From NCBI RefSeq assembly GCF_964355755.1, contig NC_092675.1, positions 4,374,312 through 4,438,311 of the forward strand: a DNA stretch of 64,000 nt, read 5' to 3'. Shown here piece by piece: positions 188 to 61,620 of this stretch. This stretch comes from Antedon mediterranea (Eukaryota > Echinodermata > Crinoidea > Comatulida > Antedonidae). A program made the position numbers and the translations under genes. The notes beneath the pieces are model-generated. The model was not told the DNA's origin, did no database searches, and was given only the letters and a program-made list of their open reading frames with translations. Each line of letters begins with the position of its first letter. Position 1 is the stretch's first letter.

Positions 188-668
<481 letters not shown>

Positions 669-4200: not shown

Positions 4201-4705
4201 AGCTCTCGATGCGTAACAATGAACATTAGATAGAAAGAACAATATAAACAGGTCTATTCATCCCAAATTCATAGCGATGTTGTTCAGGCCTTTTTTATGG
4301 CTGTGAGCCCTTGACGTTAGCATTGAACGCAAATGTGTTTACCGGCGGAAAAAGTAGCTGGCTACGATTACTATAACGATAGTGATTATGTATGCATCAT
4401 GACTATGTATTAATATGACGGTAAAAATCGCAAAGATAGCTTACCCAGCCTATTTCCTAAATTAACTTAACTGTCTCAATAATGTTCAAAATAAAATAAA
4501 AACAATATTTTTTTCATTCAAAAAAAAAATTAAAAAATCCGCAGAGTTAAGAAAACAAGCTAGCGATTAGAGTATTCGTACATGCTGAGCATTACACGTT
4601 ACGCCATAAAGTATACATGACTGAGCAGCTGACAATAGTCTATACGTACTTCATATTATTACGTAATTCATCGTTACGTCATAAATATATTTATGACCGT
4701 CAAAG

Positions 4706-4738
4706 CAGGGAGTTGTAAAAATATTTTACAACTCCCTG
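4706..4738. mobile_element. 33-bp palindromic mini-element with 7-bp target duplication
   Basis: CAGGGAGTTGTAAAA, then ATA, then the exact complement TTTTACAACTCCCTG. It is flanked directly on both sides by GTCAAAG (4699-4705 and 4739-4745), as expected for an inserted element. Related copies are at 17582, 47074 and as half sites at 52159 and 52902. Confidence 0.7.
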
Positions 4739-4779
4739 GTCAAAGCTGGTATACTATTAACCTGTTTGTATCATCCAAG

Positions 4780-15200: not shown

Positions 15201-18200
15201 CTGTCGGTGATGGGGTTGTGGTTCAAGTAAGTGTATTGATTGCCCTTCAGGGACACTTTTAGTATACAAATAACGCACTAGTTGGAGGCGAGGCCTAGAC
15301 CTACCGAGGCAAGTACCACTCTGCTCGCGACCAAATCACTGCCTAGTCTAGCACTAGAAAAACAGTCGTGTACCAGAAACAATAAGATTATACAAGTGGT
15401 TTGTGTTTGTTTTTAAATGGGGCTGTGACACAGACGACTGGTTTGTACTTGTAAATTGTGCAGTGCCTAGCGTACAAATTTACATGCAGAGTGTTATGCT
15501 TTTTTTGCATGATAGTGAAAAAATAAAGAGCGCACACATGACTCATTTCAGCGCATCTGATTGGCTACATCCTTGAACCCATGTTAAAATGGATTATAAT
15601 AAACCAGTCATTTTCCTGATAACTATTTTTCTCAAACTCGGTAGTCATGTACTTGAATTTGACATGTTTTTATCCACAGGTTAGTGGAGAACTCTCTAAC
15701 AATGCTAAGCCGATGCGTCGCTTCATGCAGACATTTGTGCTAGCACCTCAAACCAAGAAAAACTACTTTGTCCGCAATGACATTTTCCGTTACCAAGATG
15801 AGGTATTCAATGATTCTGAAGACTCGGAGACAGAGAATGTTGAAGAGGTTCCTGCAAGTGAGTATTGTGCAAGAAATGAGCTAACAGTAGTTTTACTATT
15901 ATATATAGAATTAAGAATGCTCTTCCTATAGCCTGGCAGTAAGGGGCATAAGCCATCATAAGTAAACTTAAGCTATCCTGTAAGCTCTAAAAAATGTAAA
16001 TTTCATTGACTAGTAGTAGTAAACTATAGGCACTAGTTATCTTTTTAGTAAAGCTGATCATCGGGCCTTCTACAATACAAAACATGTACAGTACAAAAAT
16101 ACACTAGTAAAAATGGCACTAGTTCAGGGCTCGCAGAATCCTAAAATATTTGGTTGCCCTTCGGGCAAGTAGGTTTTAGATTTTGGTTGCCCTCATCATT
16201 TTTTACTTGCCCACTATTTTAACTTAATTTTAACGTTTTATACCGCGACTGCACCGCGAAAAAACGTCGGTGAAAAACGCCTATGCTTAATACACTGTGG
16301 TGTTTTTTTCGATGGATTTTAAGTAGTGAAAACAATTTTTCAAATTTTTTCAATTACACAGTGATGTAGGCCAATCTTTTAAGAACATTTTACAGTAATT
16401 TATTTTCTCATACGATCCTCCGTGCAAGAGTTGCGATTGTTTAATTAACATGGTGTCCTGAAATCCCTTTGAAAACGCTATGTTATTTCTGTTGGTTACG
16501 CTTCGTTGCACGGCATTGTTTGTCATCGATCGAAGATGTGTTCCGTTTCGTGAATGAACACGTGGGTTTACTTTGGGAGCAAAAACGTTTTGCTTTTATT
16601 GTGCAATGAAATTCCGAAATCAAGCTATTTTGCGATATTTAAAATGTAGTGGCCTAGACATGGCACCACAATTATTTAATAGATATATCTAAAATATTGC
16701 CTATAGAAATGTAGGCCTAGGCCTAAAAGTTTAAACAAAGTACTTATGAAGGTGATGAGCTAGTTGAAATCATAGAGAAGAAAAAAACAAACAAACATCA
16801 ACTGACGTCCGTCTACGTGACGTGTAACAATACGCATGCGTATAGCAAAAAACCTCACAGCAGCTGCCGTACGTAGAGCACATGGGTACGGTGTGTGGAG
16901 AGTGCGGGCTTGTGGAAGTTTACTTGTTGTTTCAGTAGAAGCTCGCACAGGTTGGATAAAAACAACCATCTGCTCGCACAAGTTGGTGATTGAAAACAAC
17001 ACAAGGGAACTGTGCCGAATTGTGGTGAAAACCACGTGCTCCGCCAAGCTGGAGTTTTTGAAAGTTCAACTCTCGGCGATACCCGAAGAAGTGTATTATT
17101 TTCAATGTTGATAATAAAAAATATACTGACGTAACTATTTAAGTATTCAATGTATTTATTAAATAAATTATTAGGCCTATTAAATTTATATTCTGTAATA
17201 TTTATAAAAAAAAAATGGTAGGCCTACTAGTACTTGCCTGTGTTAAAAACATCGGCCGCCGAATCCAACTCCCGGTGCCTATTTGGCACAGACAATTAGA
17301 ATTACGTATCTATTATAATTTAATAATATACTGTATTTTCAATACAACTGTACATTTGAACAATAATTACAGTAATTCAGCAAATTATTTATTACACACA
17401 AAATACATAACATGAATGTAATTAAACATAGGCCTAATCTACTATCTAGGCTGTCGCTGTAGGTCACATAATTAATACTAAGTAGTAGATTCAGATTTTA
17501 TTACCACCTTAAAATGATGTCGATATAATTGAGAAAAACAAAATCATACTAGCCCCTATTTTATTTGGTTTATAGTATAACTAGGGAGTTGTTAATTAGA
17601 AACTCCCTGGTATAACTTCAAATAAGTTAAAAGCCGAGAGTTCAACGCTTCCTATTTCGCGATCAATGGATGCCGCAAGAGACCGCGTGCTATATGACAG
17701 ACCTGGAAACTCTATACGGTACGCAACGACTTGATACGCCCGACCGCATAGAAACACATGTTTTGGCTCCTGGAGATAACGTTCCATACCACCGAATTCC
17801 GATCCATACATTTACTTAACAAACACTACACTGGTCTCGACGTCAAGAGAATTCGTTCGTGCGCGACTATTATTTTCATTGTTACATTATTTCACAACCC
17901 CTGTAAAACATCGTGGACATTTTCGGTGATTTTAAGAGGTTGCCCGTCGGAACATGACATGTTAAATTTTAGTTGCCCGACGTATTTATTTGGTTGCCGC
18001 GGGACGTCGGCAAGCGATTCTGCGAGCCCTGTAGTTAATACAACCTACATTACACCTTAGTAGCCAATTCTTTGGCTAGAAATTAATAGAAATCGAGCTA
18101 AATTGAAAATTTCTTTTTTAAAACTTAATTCTTTTTATTTACCCAGCATCGGAAGAAGAGACCGAGGATGCTGGCATGGCCCAGACCGCCGGGACTGTCC

Positions 18201-23243: not shown

Positions 23244-31579
<8,336 letters not shown>

Positions 31580-39854: not shown

Positions 39855-40013
39855 TAAATCTCTACACTATCAAACTTTATGTGACAAAAAAGTGTGATGT
39901 ACCCAAATATGGTAGTGATATGGTTAAATATGATAGTGATATAAAATCATCATGTCTATATGGACACATTACATTTTTTTGTCACATTAAGTTTGATAGT
40001 GTAAGATGTTTTA
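39855..40013 (+). mobile_element. MITE family A, copy 9
   Basis: TAAATCTCTACACTATCAAA to AAGTTTGATAGTGTAAGA; its right end is shared with the duplicated segment. Confidence 0.75.
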
Positions 40014-44369: not shown

Positions 44370-45600
44370 GCGATTTTTTTTTTCGTACATAAGTTGGGGA
44401 CCCCCTCATGAAACGTCACAAAATAAACATGAATAATTCATCAGTTAAATTTTCTTGTTCCGTGTGCACCCAAGCGTATAGCAACAAGAAGTGATTACAC
44501 AAGTGCGGTACGATTCTAGGCCTATCTCCGCTGTTGAAGAATAGCGGCGTTTTGTGTGGATTGTCGAAATAATCGGCCTTTAGTTTATGGTGTTTTTAAT
44601 ATAATTTATTACTAAAGAATTACGTGTTAAAATTATAGTTTCTATTAATACTATTAGGCCTAATTATTAGTCTCTAAACCCATGTCTATTCTAGTAGTAG
44701 CTGTGTGGATGTGTGTGACGTGTGTGTGTGTTAGGTATGACCAAAGATAGTTACACTATCTTTGGTAATAGTTACACTATCTTTGGTATGACACAATCCG
44801 AGTAATAAGTCAGCAAAAACAATAAACATTACACAAAAATACATTTTTTATTCTCGTGGGTCAAATCTTCCCATCTCATGTGTTCATATACGCGCATTTT
44901 TAAAGTTCCTTTGAGTACATTGTTTGATAATTGATAGCAGAATTAAAAAAATACAGTACACAAATTATACACATTCTTTATTCTTGTGGGTCTAAGCTTT
45001 CTTTGGGCTATGTCCAAGAACGCTTGGGTGCACACGGAACAACAACTGCGATACGATTCTTTCTACAATAATAGGCCTAGGATTCTAGGTCAATTCACGT
45101 GATTGCCTTCGCGCACTCTTCTTCACACACACGTCCACTATGCAAAATGTGTCGAGGCTAATCGACAGCTAGGCAAAACATTAAACTAAGTAGTAATTGG
45201 ACGTACATAGCCCAAAGACACAAGTCACACACACCGTACCCACACAGCTACTACTAGAATATACAGGGATTTAGAGACTAGTAATTAGGCCTAATAGTAT
45301 CAATAAAACCTATAATTTTAACACGTAATTCTTTAGTAATCAACTATATTAAAAACACCATAAACTAAAGGCTGATTATTTCGACAATCCGCACAAAACT
45401 CCGCTATTCTATTATGAAATCGCACGCGGCAACCACAGCGGAGATAGGCCTAGAATCGTACCGCACTTGTGTAATCACTTCTTGTTGCTATACGCTTTGG
45501 GTGCACACGGAACAAGAAAATTTAACTGATGAATTATTCATGTTTATTTTGTGACGTTTCATGATGGGGTCCCCAACTTATGTACGAAAAAAAAAATCGC
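44370..45600. mobile_element. 1.23-kb foldback element with 9-bp target duplication (Mutator-like)
   Basis: Arms of about 370 and 400 bp are inverted copies (GCGATTTTTTTTTTCGTACA at each outer end, then AAGTTGGGGACCCC). AGCCCGCCT flanks both sides exactly (44361-44369, 45601-45609). Long TIRs plus a 9-bp duplication are Mutator-like traits. The roughly 440-base centre repeats part of the arm (45020-45040) and has ACACTATCTTTGGT in tandem. No transposase. Confidence 0.82.
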
Positions 45601-47073: not shown

Positions 47074-47105
47074 CAGGGAGTTGTTAATTAACAACTCGAT
47101 CCCTG
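47074..47105. mobile_element. CAGGGAGTTGTTAATTAACA palindrome, third copy
   Basis: Palindromic core with a two-base GA insertion in the right arm; flanks show no clear duplication. Confidence 0.5.
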
Positions 47106-51861: not shown

Positions 51862-52158
51862 TATTATAATAATAATAATAATAAGATTTTTATAGCGCAC
51901 ATACCACTCCAGAGTGCTCAAGGCGCATTTAAAAATAAAAAAGAAATAATCAATTTATTATTTCTATTATAGAACGATTAAGAAGAGTATAAAGACGTTT
52001 AGTTGTAGCTTTCACACAAAATTAGATTTTGTATGTGACGAATTGCAGCACTTTATCTCAAGTCTGGTCTAGGCTATCTATCTATAATAACGTTACAATC
52101 ATTTGATTACATTTACATCAGTGATGGTCGTCATTGAGTTGACTAGTATTGATTTAAC

Positions 52159-52916
52159 CAGGGAGTTGTTATTTAACTTTACAAGATACACGGTCTGCCT
52201 TGGCTGGAATAAGAAAACAGTATTTCAAACAAAAGAATTTGAATTACTTATCTCTTAAACAGCATTCATGAATATGATAATGTCACATGTAGTTCTTGAG
52301 TCAGTAGAAACAAAGAAGGTTTAAGAATATTTATACTGCTTTAGATAACAATAATACGGTATAACCATGAGTATAACCGATTCTCGTACGGTATCATGTC
52401 TAGCGCGACAATAAACAACGTACCGTATCATGTCTGCTGACGGCAACATGATCATACGATGGCACACTTTAGTAACTTTCCTCTAAATAATCTATCATAC
52501 TACCACGGGACTAAGACTGCTGTTAATCGGGTATAACATAGTGTTTTCTTTTCCCAAATGGTTATACTGTATTATAAATGATTTTAAAAAGTGTTCGTAA
52601 TATTGGTGGTTTAGGCCTAAAGATTCAGACTTCACACTGACTCGGTCCGGTGACCGGAGAAAAAGCACTACGTTTTTCGATCACGCACGTACGTTTCGTG
52701 ATACGGAATCCGGAATCAGAAAAAGTAATAGAGAACATGCTTTTAATAAGTTGAACTATATGGACCTTTAAATTTATGTCCATGGTTGAACCAAGCATTC
52801 AGTTGAAAAATAAATTGCTAGGCTTAATAGCTTAATTATGATTCTTTGTGTAGAAATAAGTCTAATTAAGCTTAATAACAATATCCGTACTGTTAAGTAT
52901 TAATTAAAACTCCCTG
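52159..52916. repeat. Two CAGGGAGTT half sites facing each other 758 bp apart
   Basis: Left CAGGGAGTTGTTATTTAAC, right ATTAATTAAAACTCCCTG. They could be the termini of the longer parent of the palindromic mini-elements, but I see no matching 7-bp flank, so separate relics are equally possible. Confidence 0.35.
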
Positions 52917-59720: not shown

Positions 59721-61552
59721 ATGTCAATTTTTGTCACTTGTCATGATAGACGGTGACAAAAATCTTGTAACATTGTGTTATTCCGCCCTCTATGTTACAA
59801 AATGCAAATTTGTTGTGGTTTTGAGTTTTGATTGTCAAGTGCAAAAAAATGGTATTAAATAGTCAAACTTCTCTTGCCGTTTTCGAGGTTTTCATGTCGA
59901 ATCGAGTGTGAAAATAAATACCAACTATTGGAATAATGGCTTTTTAAATGTATGGAAGTACTGAATTAATGAGGTGAGTATACCATCAGATTCATCACTG
60001 TTTTTTATATTTAAAACTAAATATTTAACAGATTTTTTGAAGTTCAGGTGGAGTTCTAACTTGGCCTTCTCGTCTGCTAAGTTTGTACACCTCTACCACC
60101 TGACAGTTCTGAAAGATGAAACCAGCCTTGTTAGGAAACGGGAGTTCATTGTAGGCCTAGGCCCATGCTATGGTTCATCAATGTACAAGTGTTTCGTTGA
60201 AAGCGAACTATCAAAGAAGATTGTGTAAACAATAATGTCAGACTGGTACTAACTAAGTAAGGCTAAGCCCTAGCTAGTAGTACTAAAGCCTAACTGTTTA
60301 TGAAATACAATTCTCTCAAGATAGTCTGCTTTTAGTTTTAAATATTTAAAAAAAAGGAATTAAATACAGTTATAATTTTGACAATTTATTAGTCATTTAT
60401 ATTGTTGTGCCATCTCGGAAACCTTCCCAGAATGTTTTAACTTTGTCTTTAATATATCAGCATCAGTGAAATTAAATGTTTTTCTTTTTTTCTGTACTTC
60501 TGTGCACTATATATTTAATGTGCTATATTTATGCGCCATATTTATATAATTAAGTCACGGAGTAACTAATTTAGTGACTTTAATAAGCTTGTTTTGTGTA
60601 ATGGTTATGTAACACATTAGAACACACCTCCTTGTCGTTTTTAAACGATTAATACAGAATCATGTAACACAGAATCAATCAATTAAAATTGGTTGATTTT
60701 GTGTTGTTTTTTTCTCACGTTTTCAACAATTGACTGTACTATATTGCACGCAAGTTTTTTGTAGAAAATTTTACAATGTCGTAGGCCTGAATAGTGTAGG
60801 ACTGGAAACCCACCTGTAGAGTGCGACATCTGAAACTGCTTTGTTCCCCCAGACAAAATATGAGCACCCCTCCTCTCCTCTTTTACAACCCAGTACACAG
60901 GCAAGATACAGAATGAAAGTCAAATACTCCTGTAATAGGTTAATGATCTAGGTCATTTTACTGGACATCTGACCAAACTCAACATAAGGAATATCTCTCA
61001 AGACAAAAATGGGCTTACAATGAGTGTCTAGAGAAGAGATACAAATAGGAAAATATTAATTAAATCATCATAAATAAATATACAGTATATTTCTAAGGGT
61101 TAATTTATTATAAGTATTTATTAAATTAAATGAATTATTCATACTACTTTGACAATCCAATGATTGTCAAGTTAAAGTGGCTGTTTGATTGACAAGTATT
61201 CAATGGTTTATTGGATTAGACTAGACAATGGCTTATGTACACATACGCAGAGGATTAAAGGATAGTGAAATTACTGTTAATTAAATTAATTCAATTGACC
61301 TAGATAAGTTTGTCCATTCCATGGGATATTTCTCAGAAAAAAATGGTGCCACTGTCGTTATAAAAAAAGAGACAAAGTGTGGCAGATGACCATGGCATTG
61401 AATATTTCATTATCTAAATTTTTATTTTATTAAGCTTTTAAAACGATTCAATGTCAAGTTTGCACTCAAGGTTATATACTTTCCTCTTAACTTTACTTTT
61501 TCCTTTTTTTAAAGGTTTAAAAATATAACTTTAATAACACAAGTTATTTTTT

Positions 61553-61620
61553 ATTGTCGAGCGCATAGAGACATCGCTTATTTGCGCTATAAGTATATAA
61601 ATCTATCTATTATTATTATA
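61553..61620 (-). repeat. GCGCTATAAG repeat with (ATT)n
   Basis: TTGTCGAGCGCATAGAGAC to TTTGCGCTATAAGTATATAA then ATTATTATTA; reverse form of the TATAGCGC repeat family. Confidence 0.45.

Follow-up and report, generated by a model that had tools for sequence, protein, structure and literature searches.

The short palindromes that lie between 7-bp direct repeats in the window, a 64-kb stretch of the Antedon mediterranea genome, are very probably excision footprints of a P-superfamily transposon, each one marking a place where the host rejoined the two ends left behind by the element. In the mechanism we propose, the transposase would nick one strand at the end of the element and the other strand within the terminal inverted repeat (TIR), about 18 nt in from that end, and each flank would keep the element's first 18 nt as a 3' overhang. 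As the element ends are inverted repeats, both overhangs would have the same sequence, and the host would join them through short self-complementary overlaps (mostly TA), directly, or with a short and sometimes templated filler. This would yield a palindrome no longer than about 36 bp, apart from any filler, positioned exactly between the original 7-bp duplications. We infer the staggered cut itself, the repair pathway that acted, and the present immobility of the scars from the sequence.

Within the window, the near-palindromes at 4706-4738 and 17582-17609 sit exactly between 7-bp direct repeats (GTCAAAG and GTATAAC, respectively), as the preliminary description had stated (Table 1). The third copy that it placed at 47074 is indeed a palindrome of the same kind, but it has no 7-bp duplication: matching 7-mers were sought in the flanks of 47074-47105, and none were found. 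Its two half sites fared differently. The one at 52159 turned out better than described, as an insertion with one arm only, between perfect 7-bp repeats (ATTTAAC / CAGGGAGTTGTT / ATTTAAC), but the right half-site at 52906 has no duplication. The core motif CAGGGAGTTGT occurs seven times in the window with at most one mismatch, against 0.69 expected, and none of 100 shuffles reached seven. The termini of the scar-like palindrome at 44742..44785 resemble the termini found where a transposase-bearing group has its edge (L026, L027, L030, and L034).

Table 1. Putative excision scars, their duplications, and similar palindromes in the window
Feature	Position	Strand	Detail
Scar of a different family, CATGGAGGTA...TACCTCCATA	482..506	.	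between 8-bp repeats CATAATCC; 596 relatives genome-wide
Left 7-bp target-site duplication GTCAAAG	4699..4705	.	
AAAATA-subfamily excision scar, 33 bp	4706..4738	.	TIR arm 15 nt + filler 1 nt + TIR arm 17 nt
Right 7-bp duplication GTCAAAG	4739..4745	.	
Left 7-bp duplication GTATAAC	17575..17581	.	
Excision scar, 28 bp	17582..17609	.	arms TAGGGAGTTGTTAATTAGA + AACTCCCTG; first base C mutated to T; third arm subtype, TTAATTAGA
Right 7-bp duplication GTATAAC	17610..17616	.	
Scar-like palindrome CAAAGATAGT...ACTATCTTTG, repeated internal block	44742..44785	.	between 7-bp repeats GTATGAC
Palindrome of the same kind, TTAATTA subtype, 3-nt insert in right arm	47074..47105	.	old or rearranged scar
Left 7-bp duplication ATTTAAC	52152..52158	.	
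One-armed scar CAGGGAGTTGTT	52159..52170	+	12 nt of one TIR; second arm entirely gone
Right 7-bp duplication ATTTAAC	52171..52177	.	
Possible right half-arm AAAACTCCCTG, uncertain	52906..52916	-	duplication sought, none found

In the genome-wide search that the preliminary description had proposed (354 Mb in 18 contigs), the CAGGGAGTT palindrome was present in 480 exact copies when both 11-nt arms were required and in 783 when both 9-nt arms were required, against no copies in either setting for the pattern read backwards. Flanking sequence was read for samples of these scars, and in nearly every case it showed a 7-bp target duplication. The tally of duplication lengths, likewise proposed there, gave exactly 7 bp in 47 of 49 distinct scars and 8 bp in the other two (an automatic collection that required perfect repeats), and the consensus of the duplication in these 49, near GTTWAAC, is itself palindromic. 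Insertion is confirmed because empty sites exist: two scars (L095 and L103) lie within a high-copy repeat whose unoccupied copies are present in the window, and an unoccupied copy of the sequence around a third (L056) is found at window positions 61550-61615. The duplications, the common unit, the differing targets, and these empty sites together bear out the claim of an insertion signature. The repeat that hosts L095 and L103 elsewhere in the genome, TGTCTACACTATCAAACT...TGTGACAAAAAAGTGTGATGTGCCCA, occurs in both orientations at many places in the window (e.g., 25900-30700 and 39860-40000).

Some scars have also been multiplied by duplication, as with L004 and L005, which are copies of one scar. 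The copies of one 20-mer clustered at C1:9.6-10.9 Mb probably stem from a single scar by duplication as well, and a tandem array at C3:297727-298559 repeats one 38-bp scar at a spacing of 45 bp (in some cases 61 bp), the 45 bp being the scar plus 7 bp.

A search for larger elements with the same termini, also suggested earlier, was successful. With the 17-nt end CAGGGAGTTGTTATTAG as the query, paired ends lying 2533-2554 bp apart revealed 2.5-kb elements that are about 98-99% identical, carry the inverted ends CAGGGAGTTGTTATTAGATGGAGTAAC, and are flanked by 7-bp duplications (CTCTGAC, TCCTGAC, and ATCAAAC). One 4-kb copy (L076, 4014 bp, C3:16178933-16183146) has both flanks in common with the 2.5-kb elements and holds extra coding pieces in mid-element. 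The earlier suggestion that the palindromes are two fused TIRs is borne out. The preliminary description had also considered that all copies might derive from one larger element retaining the same flanks; this is nearly what is found, but each scar is a separate excision event, apart from a few duplicated copies. Nearly all copies of the parents themselves carry two inherited scars of 14 bp and 29 bp (e.g., at 1103 and 1908 in L077), and the copy at C1:15412606 differs at the 14-bp scar. For the AAAATA subfamily, no full-length parent was found among the 100 places listed.

The parents have TIRs of at least 28 bp, and these are consistently trimmed to about 18 nt or fewer in the scars, with the 7-bp duplication left intact. 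Among 170 genomic matches to the 17-nt end, 21 reach 23 nt and about 149 (exact TTATTAG ends) stop earlier, which shows that a family can persist mainly as scars. Only one of the 21 longer ends belongs to a scar (C1:31763999), and the rest either are unpaired or terminate larger elements. Among the first 50 matches read, the arm length was 17 nt in 8, 18 nt in 24, 19 nt in 10, 20-22 nt in none, and 23 nt in 1, the remaining 7 being full-length ends (at least 28 nt); 42 of these 43 scars keep at most the outer 17-19 nt per end, and the 23-nt scar is the single longer case. The share of 19-nt arms (10 of the 34 that reach at least 18 nt) equals the rate at which the next base would match by chance. 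Arms of the AAAATA subfamily are similarly distributed (17 nt in 14, 18 nt in 38, and 19 nt in 14), and here the 19th base may be a real templated base. Because TIR retention stops at about 18 nt even though the TIR extends to at least 28 bp, the palindromes are best read as P-type excision footprints.

The way in which the arms are joined is consistent with this reading. After removal of one duplicate, direct joining of two arms of at most 18 nt accounts for 36 of 49 scars, and half of these (18/36) fall in the TA-overlap classes, against an expected fraction of about 0.19 under a simple null in which joining is random and uniform (P=3e-5). The junctions seen most often are the ones that two identical 18-nt 3' overhangs would give on annealing at the self-complementary TA. 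The remaining scars contain short fillers, some of them apparently templated by the neighbouring arm (e.g., in L085 and L063). One arm has been lost entirely in a few scars, including the one at 52159, and at L106 and L110 the loss of an arm runs into the duplication. The scars accordingly combine the features of excision footprints: an intact duplication around both TIR remnants, microhomology joins with filler, and a sharp, staggered-cut-like limit to the TIR, although this limit lies at 18 nt, one above that of Drosophila. Several points speak against the footprint reading: (i) the cut would be at 18 rather than 17 nt, (ii) the scar at C1:31763999 keeps 23 nt, (iii) some identical scars recur and a few have been multiplied by duplication, (iv) neither an intact transposase with these termini nor, among the 100 places listed, a full-length AAAATA parent was found, and (v) a single 36-mer recurs in the CATAGAG family (see below).

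Similar scars are not confined to the CAGGG type. When short palindromes enclosed by 7-8-bp repeats were sought in an unbiased scan, 88 matches emerged, against 27 in the control; many of the 88 are CAGGG scars and others are simple repeats, and the scan uncovered further scars starting with CATGGAGG, CATAGAG, and CAAAGAT. Genome-wide, palindromes of the CATGGAGG type occupy 596 places and those of the CATAGAG type 386. The arms of both look limited to about 18 nt, like those of CAGGG, as judged from the scars. All four scar families start with CANRG, which we take to be the P terminal consensus. At L003 (1501-1613), three scars of the CAGGG, CATGGAGG, and CATGGAG types stand in series with the same 7-mer, GTCAAAC, separating each; apparently, three elements used one target in turn.

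One 36-bp CATAGAG palindrome, CATAGAGATATTATAGTGAACTATAATATCTCTATG, accounts for 13 of the 44 listed places of its family; it may represent a lossless 18+18 join or have another origin. It is also present in an array at C1:19904699-19905164, which has a 43-bp period (36 + 7) and shows the palindrome centre in both orientations. It is quite unlikely that this 36-mer is itself re-cut and re-inserted by the transposase while the palindromes of the other families stay plain scars; if true, CATAGAGATATTATAGTGAACTATAATATCTCTATG would be an extremely small transposing DNA unit. We consider it very improbable that the palindromes in general are mobile, as ultra-short MITEs of 22-45 bp moved in trans by the transposase with 7-bp duplications. 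Such movement would suit the perfect duplications at many sites, the recurring interiors (one 24-mer at 9 of 50 places, as well as the CATAGAG 36-mer), and the CATAGAG array. However, the interiors are highly diverse (32 distinct at 50 CAGGG places and 29 at 50 CATGGAGG places), the recurrent CAGGG interiors are mostly those predicted by TA annealing of 18-nt ends, and the interior almost never has TIR sequence past about 18 nt though 28 bp exist. In addition, one-armed products (such as 52159 and L106) lack the second end that transposition would need, and, if the Drosophila P element is a guide, over 100 bp would be required at each end (stated in PMC1562414). The earlier suggestion of a mobile palindrome in its own right is therefore not supported, given the larger parents and the stop at about 18 nt, and neither is a MITE identity, as the interiors are diverse and junction-like, with no conserved unit spreading.

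Internal deletion, in which gap repair from the sister chromatid is abortive and an early stop leaves fused TIRs, is an extremely unlikely origin for the palindromes. Drosophila P excision often gives partial synthesis plus end joining (PMC2895639), and such repair could account for the 23-nt scar and some of the templated fillers, but it predicts variable lengths beyond the cleavage point and almost none are seen at 20-28 nt; the sharp 18-nt limit speaks against such repair being the main route. The readings as chance palindromes or as a motif with a structural or regulatory role have no specific support and are refuted, with virtually no probability left to them, by the 783 copies against none in the reversed control, the flanking duplications, and the empty sites in multicopy repeats.

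The transposase evidence agrees with the footprint reading, apart from the missing autonomous parent (see below): the parents carry remnants of a P-type RNase H transposase, and they have a palindromic target and a 7-8-bp duplication. The 4-kb copy contains PF21789 (the TNP-like RNase H C-terminal domain; E=1.7e-8), and relatives of this domain in the genome adjoin matches to PF21787 (RNase H N-terminal). Two long PF21787 frames also match PF12017, the frame of one relative matches the P transposase structure PDB 6p5a (E=3e-9), and the 2.5-kb element has an N-terminal segment homologous to the long PF21787 frames (E 1e-11 to 1e-6). A THAP domain was sought at the N-terminus, where the relatives tested and the 2.5-kb element match zf-AD instead, an assignment (ZAD-like) that is tentative, with scores under the Pfam zf-AD cut-off. 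Because of this N-terminus, we use the term "P-like lineage" and place it by its catalytic domain. The search turned up no intact transposase with these exact termini, and the 4-kb copy has pieces only. All PF21787 loci were checked and lack CAGGGAGTTGT ends within 1.5 kb, so that they did not yield the exact autonomous parent; when the same loci were scanned for TIRs plus duplications, a single plausible P-like element emerged (407 bp, CATGGAGGAAATATA, in L033). A hAT origin was rejected despite the CAGGG start, as the 7-bp duplications, the 18-nt footprint, and the P-type transposase do not fit the features of hAT elements.

Among known systems, the P transposase makes its cut 17 bp into a 31-bp TIR, and 3' extensions of 17 nt remain (PMC7776569). 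Drosophila P excision junctions are palindromes that lie between 8-bp duplications and have two arms, each no longer than 17 nt; AT and TA are their commonest short overlaps, and templated insertions occur (PMC2895639). The Antedon scars share with the Drosophila P{wa} footprints their inverted TIR arms, intact duplications, AT/TA overlaps, templated filler, and occasional arm loss. They differ in having arms of up to 18 nt and a 7-bp duplication, and they comprise hundreds of natural scars rather than laboratory junctions. Galileo, also of the P superfamily, makes 7-bp duplications at the palindromic target GTANTAC (PMC4168063). P-type RNase H domains and a palindromic AT-rich target of 7-8 bp are common to P, Galileo, 1360, zebrafish Pdre2/THAP9, and the Antedon lineage, while the TIR is at least 28 bp in the Antedon parents compared with 31 in P and 13 in Pdre2. 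Unlike P and Galileo, which have THAP, the Antedon relatives tested have a zf-AD-like N-terminus, and this lineage further differs in its second, convergent gene and in scar arms of 18 rather than 17 nt. The P-MITEs of Anopheles gambiae (PMC1562414) resemble the 2.5-kb parents in being non-autonomous with termini common to autonomous elements; however, they are genuine elements, which the palindromes described here are not, and they have 8-bp duplications and as much as about 100 bp of P sequence at each end.

P-type excision footprints have so far been known from laboratory flies, and here they form a genome-wide archive in one genome. No paper describing genome-wide natural P footprints was found in the literature searched, coverage of which was incomplete. 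The three families together give approximately 1,760 matches, among them some duplicated copies, and would constitute a natural record of germ-line end-joining outcomes. The mechanism (P-type excision with end joining) is known, but its abundance and the lineage behind it are unusual; this variant is marked by the predicted 18-nt cut, the 7-bp duplications, the ZAD-like N-terminus, and the convergent second gene. For a P lineage that is uncharacterised, the scars predict a staggered cut of 18 nt and give the target preference from sequence alone. They also caution against annotating short palindromes as MITEs when these lie between direct repeats.

A two-gene layout was observed at L076 and at its relatives at C5:14.66 Mb, C5:16.16 Mb, C3:12.88 Mb, and C11:13.87 Mb, in which a frame with zf-AD-like and P-type RNase H parts is accompanied by a convergent frame on the opposite strand with a conserved YVAGY segment. 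In its layout, the convergent arrangement is reminiscent of convergent RAG1-like/RAG2-like genes. L076 and the 2.5-kb elements also carry a PHD-like segment on the second strand near the far end.
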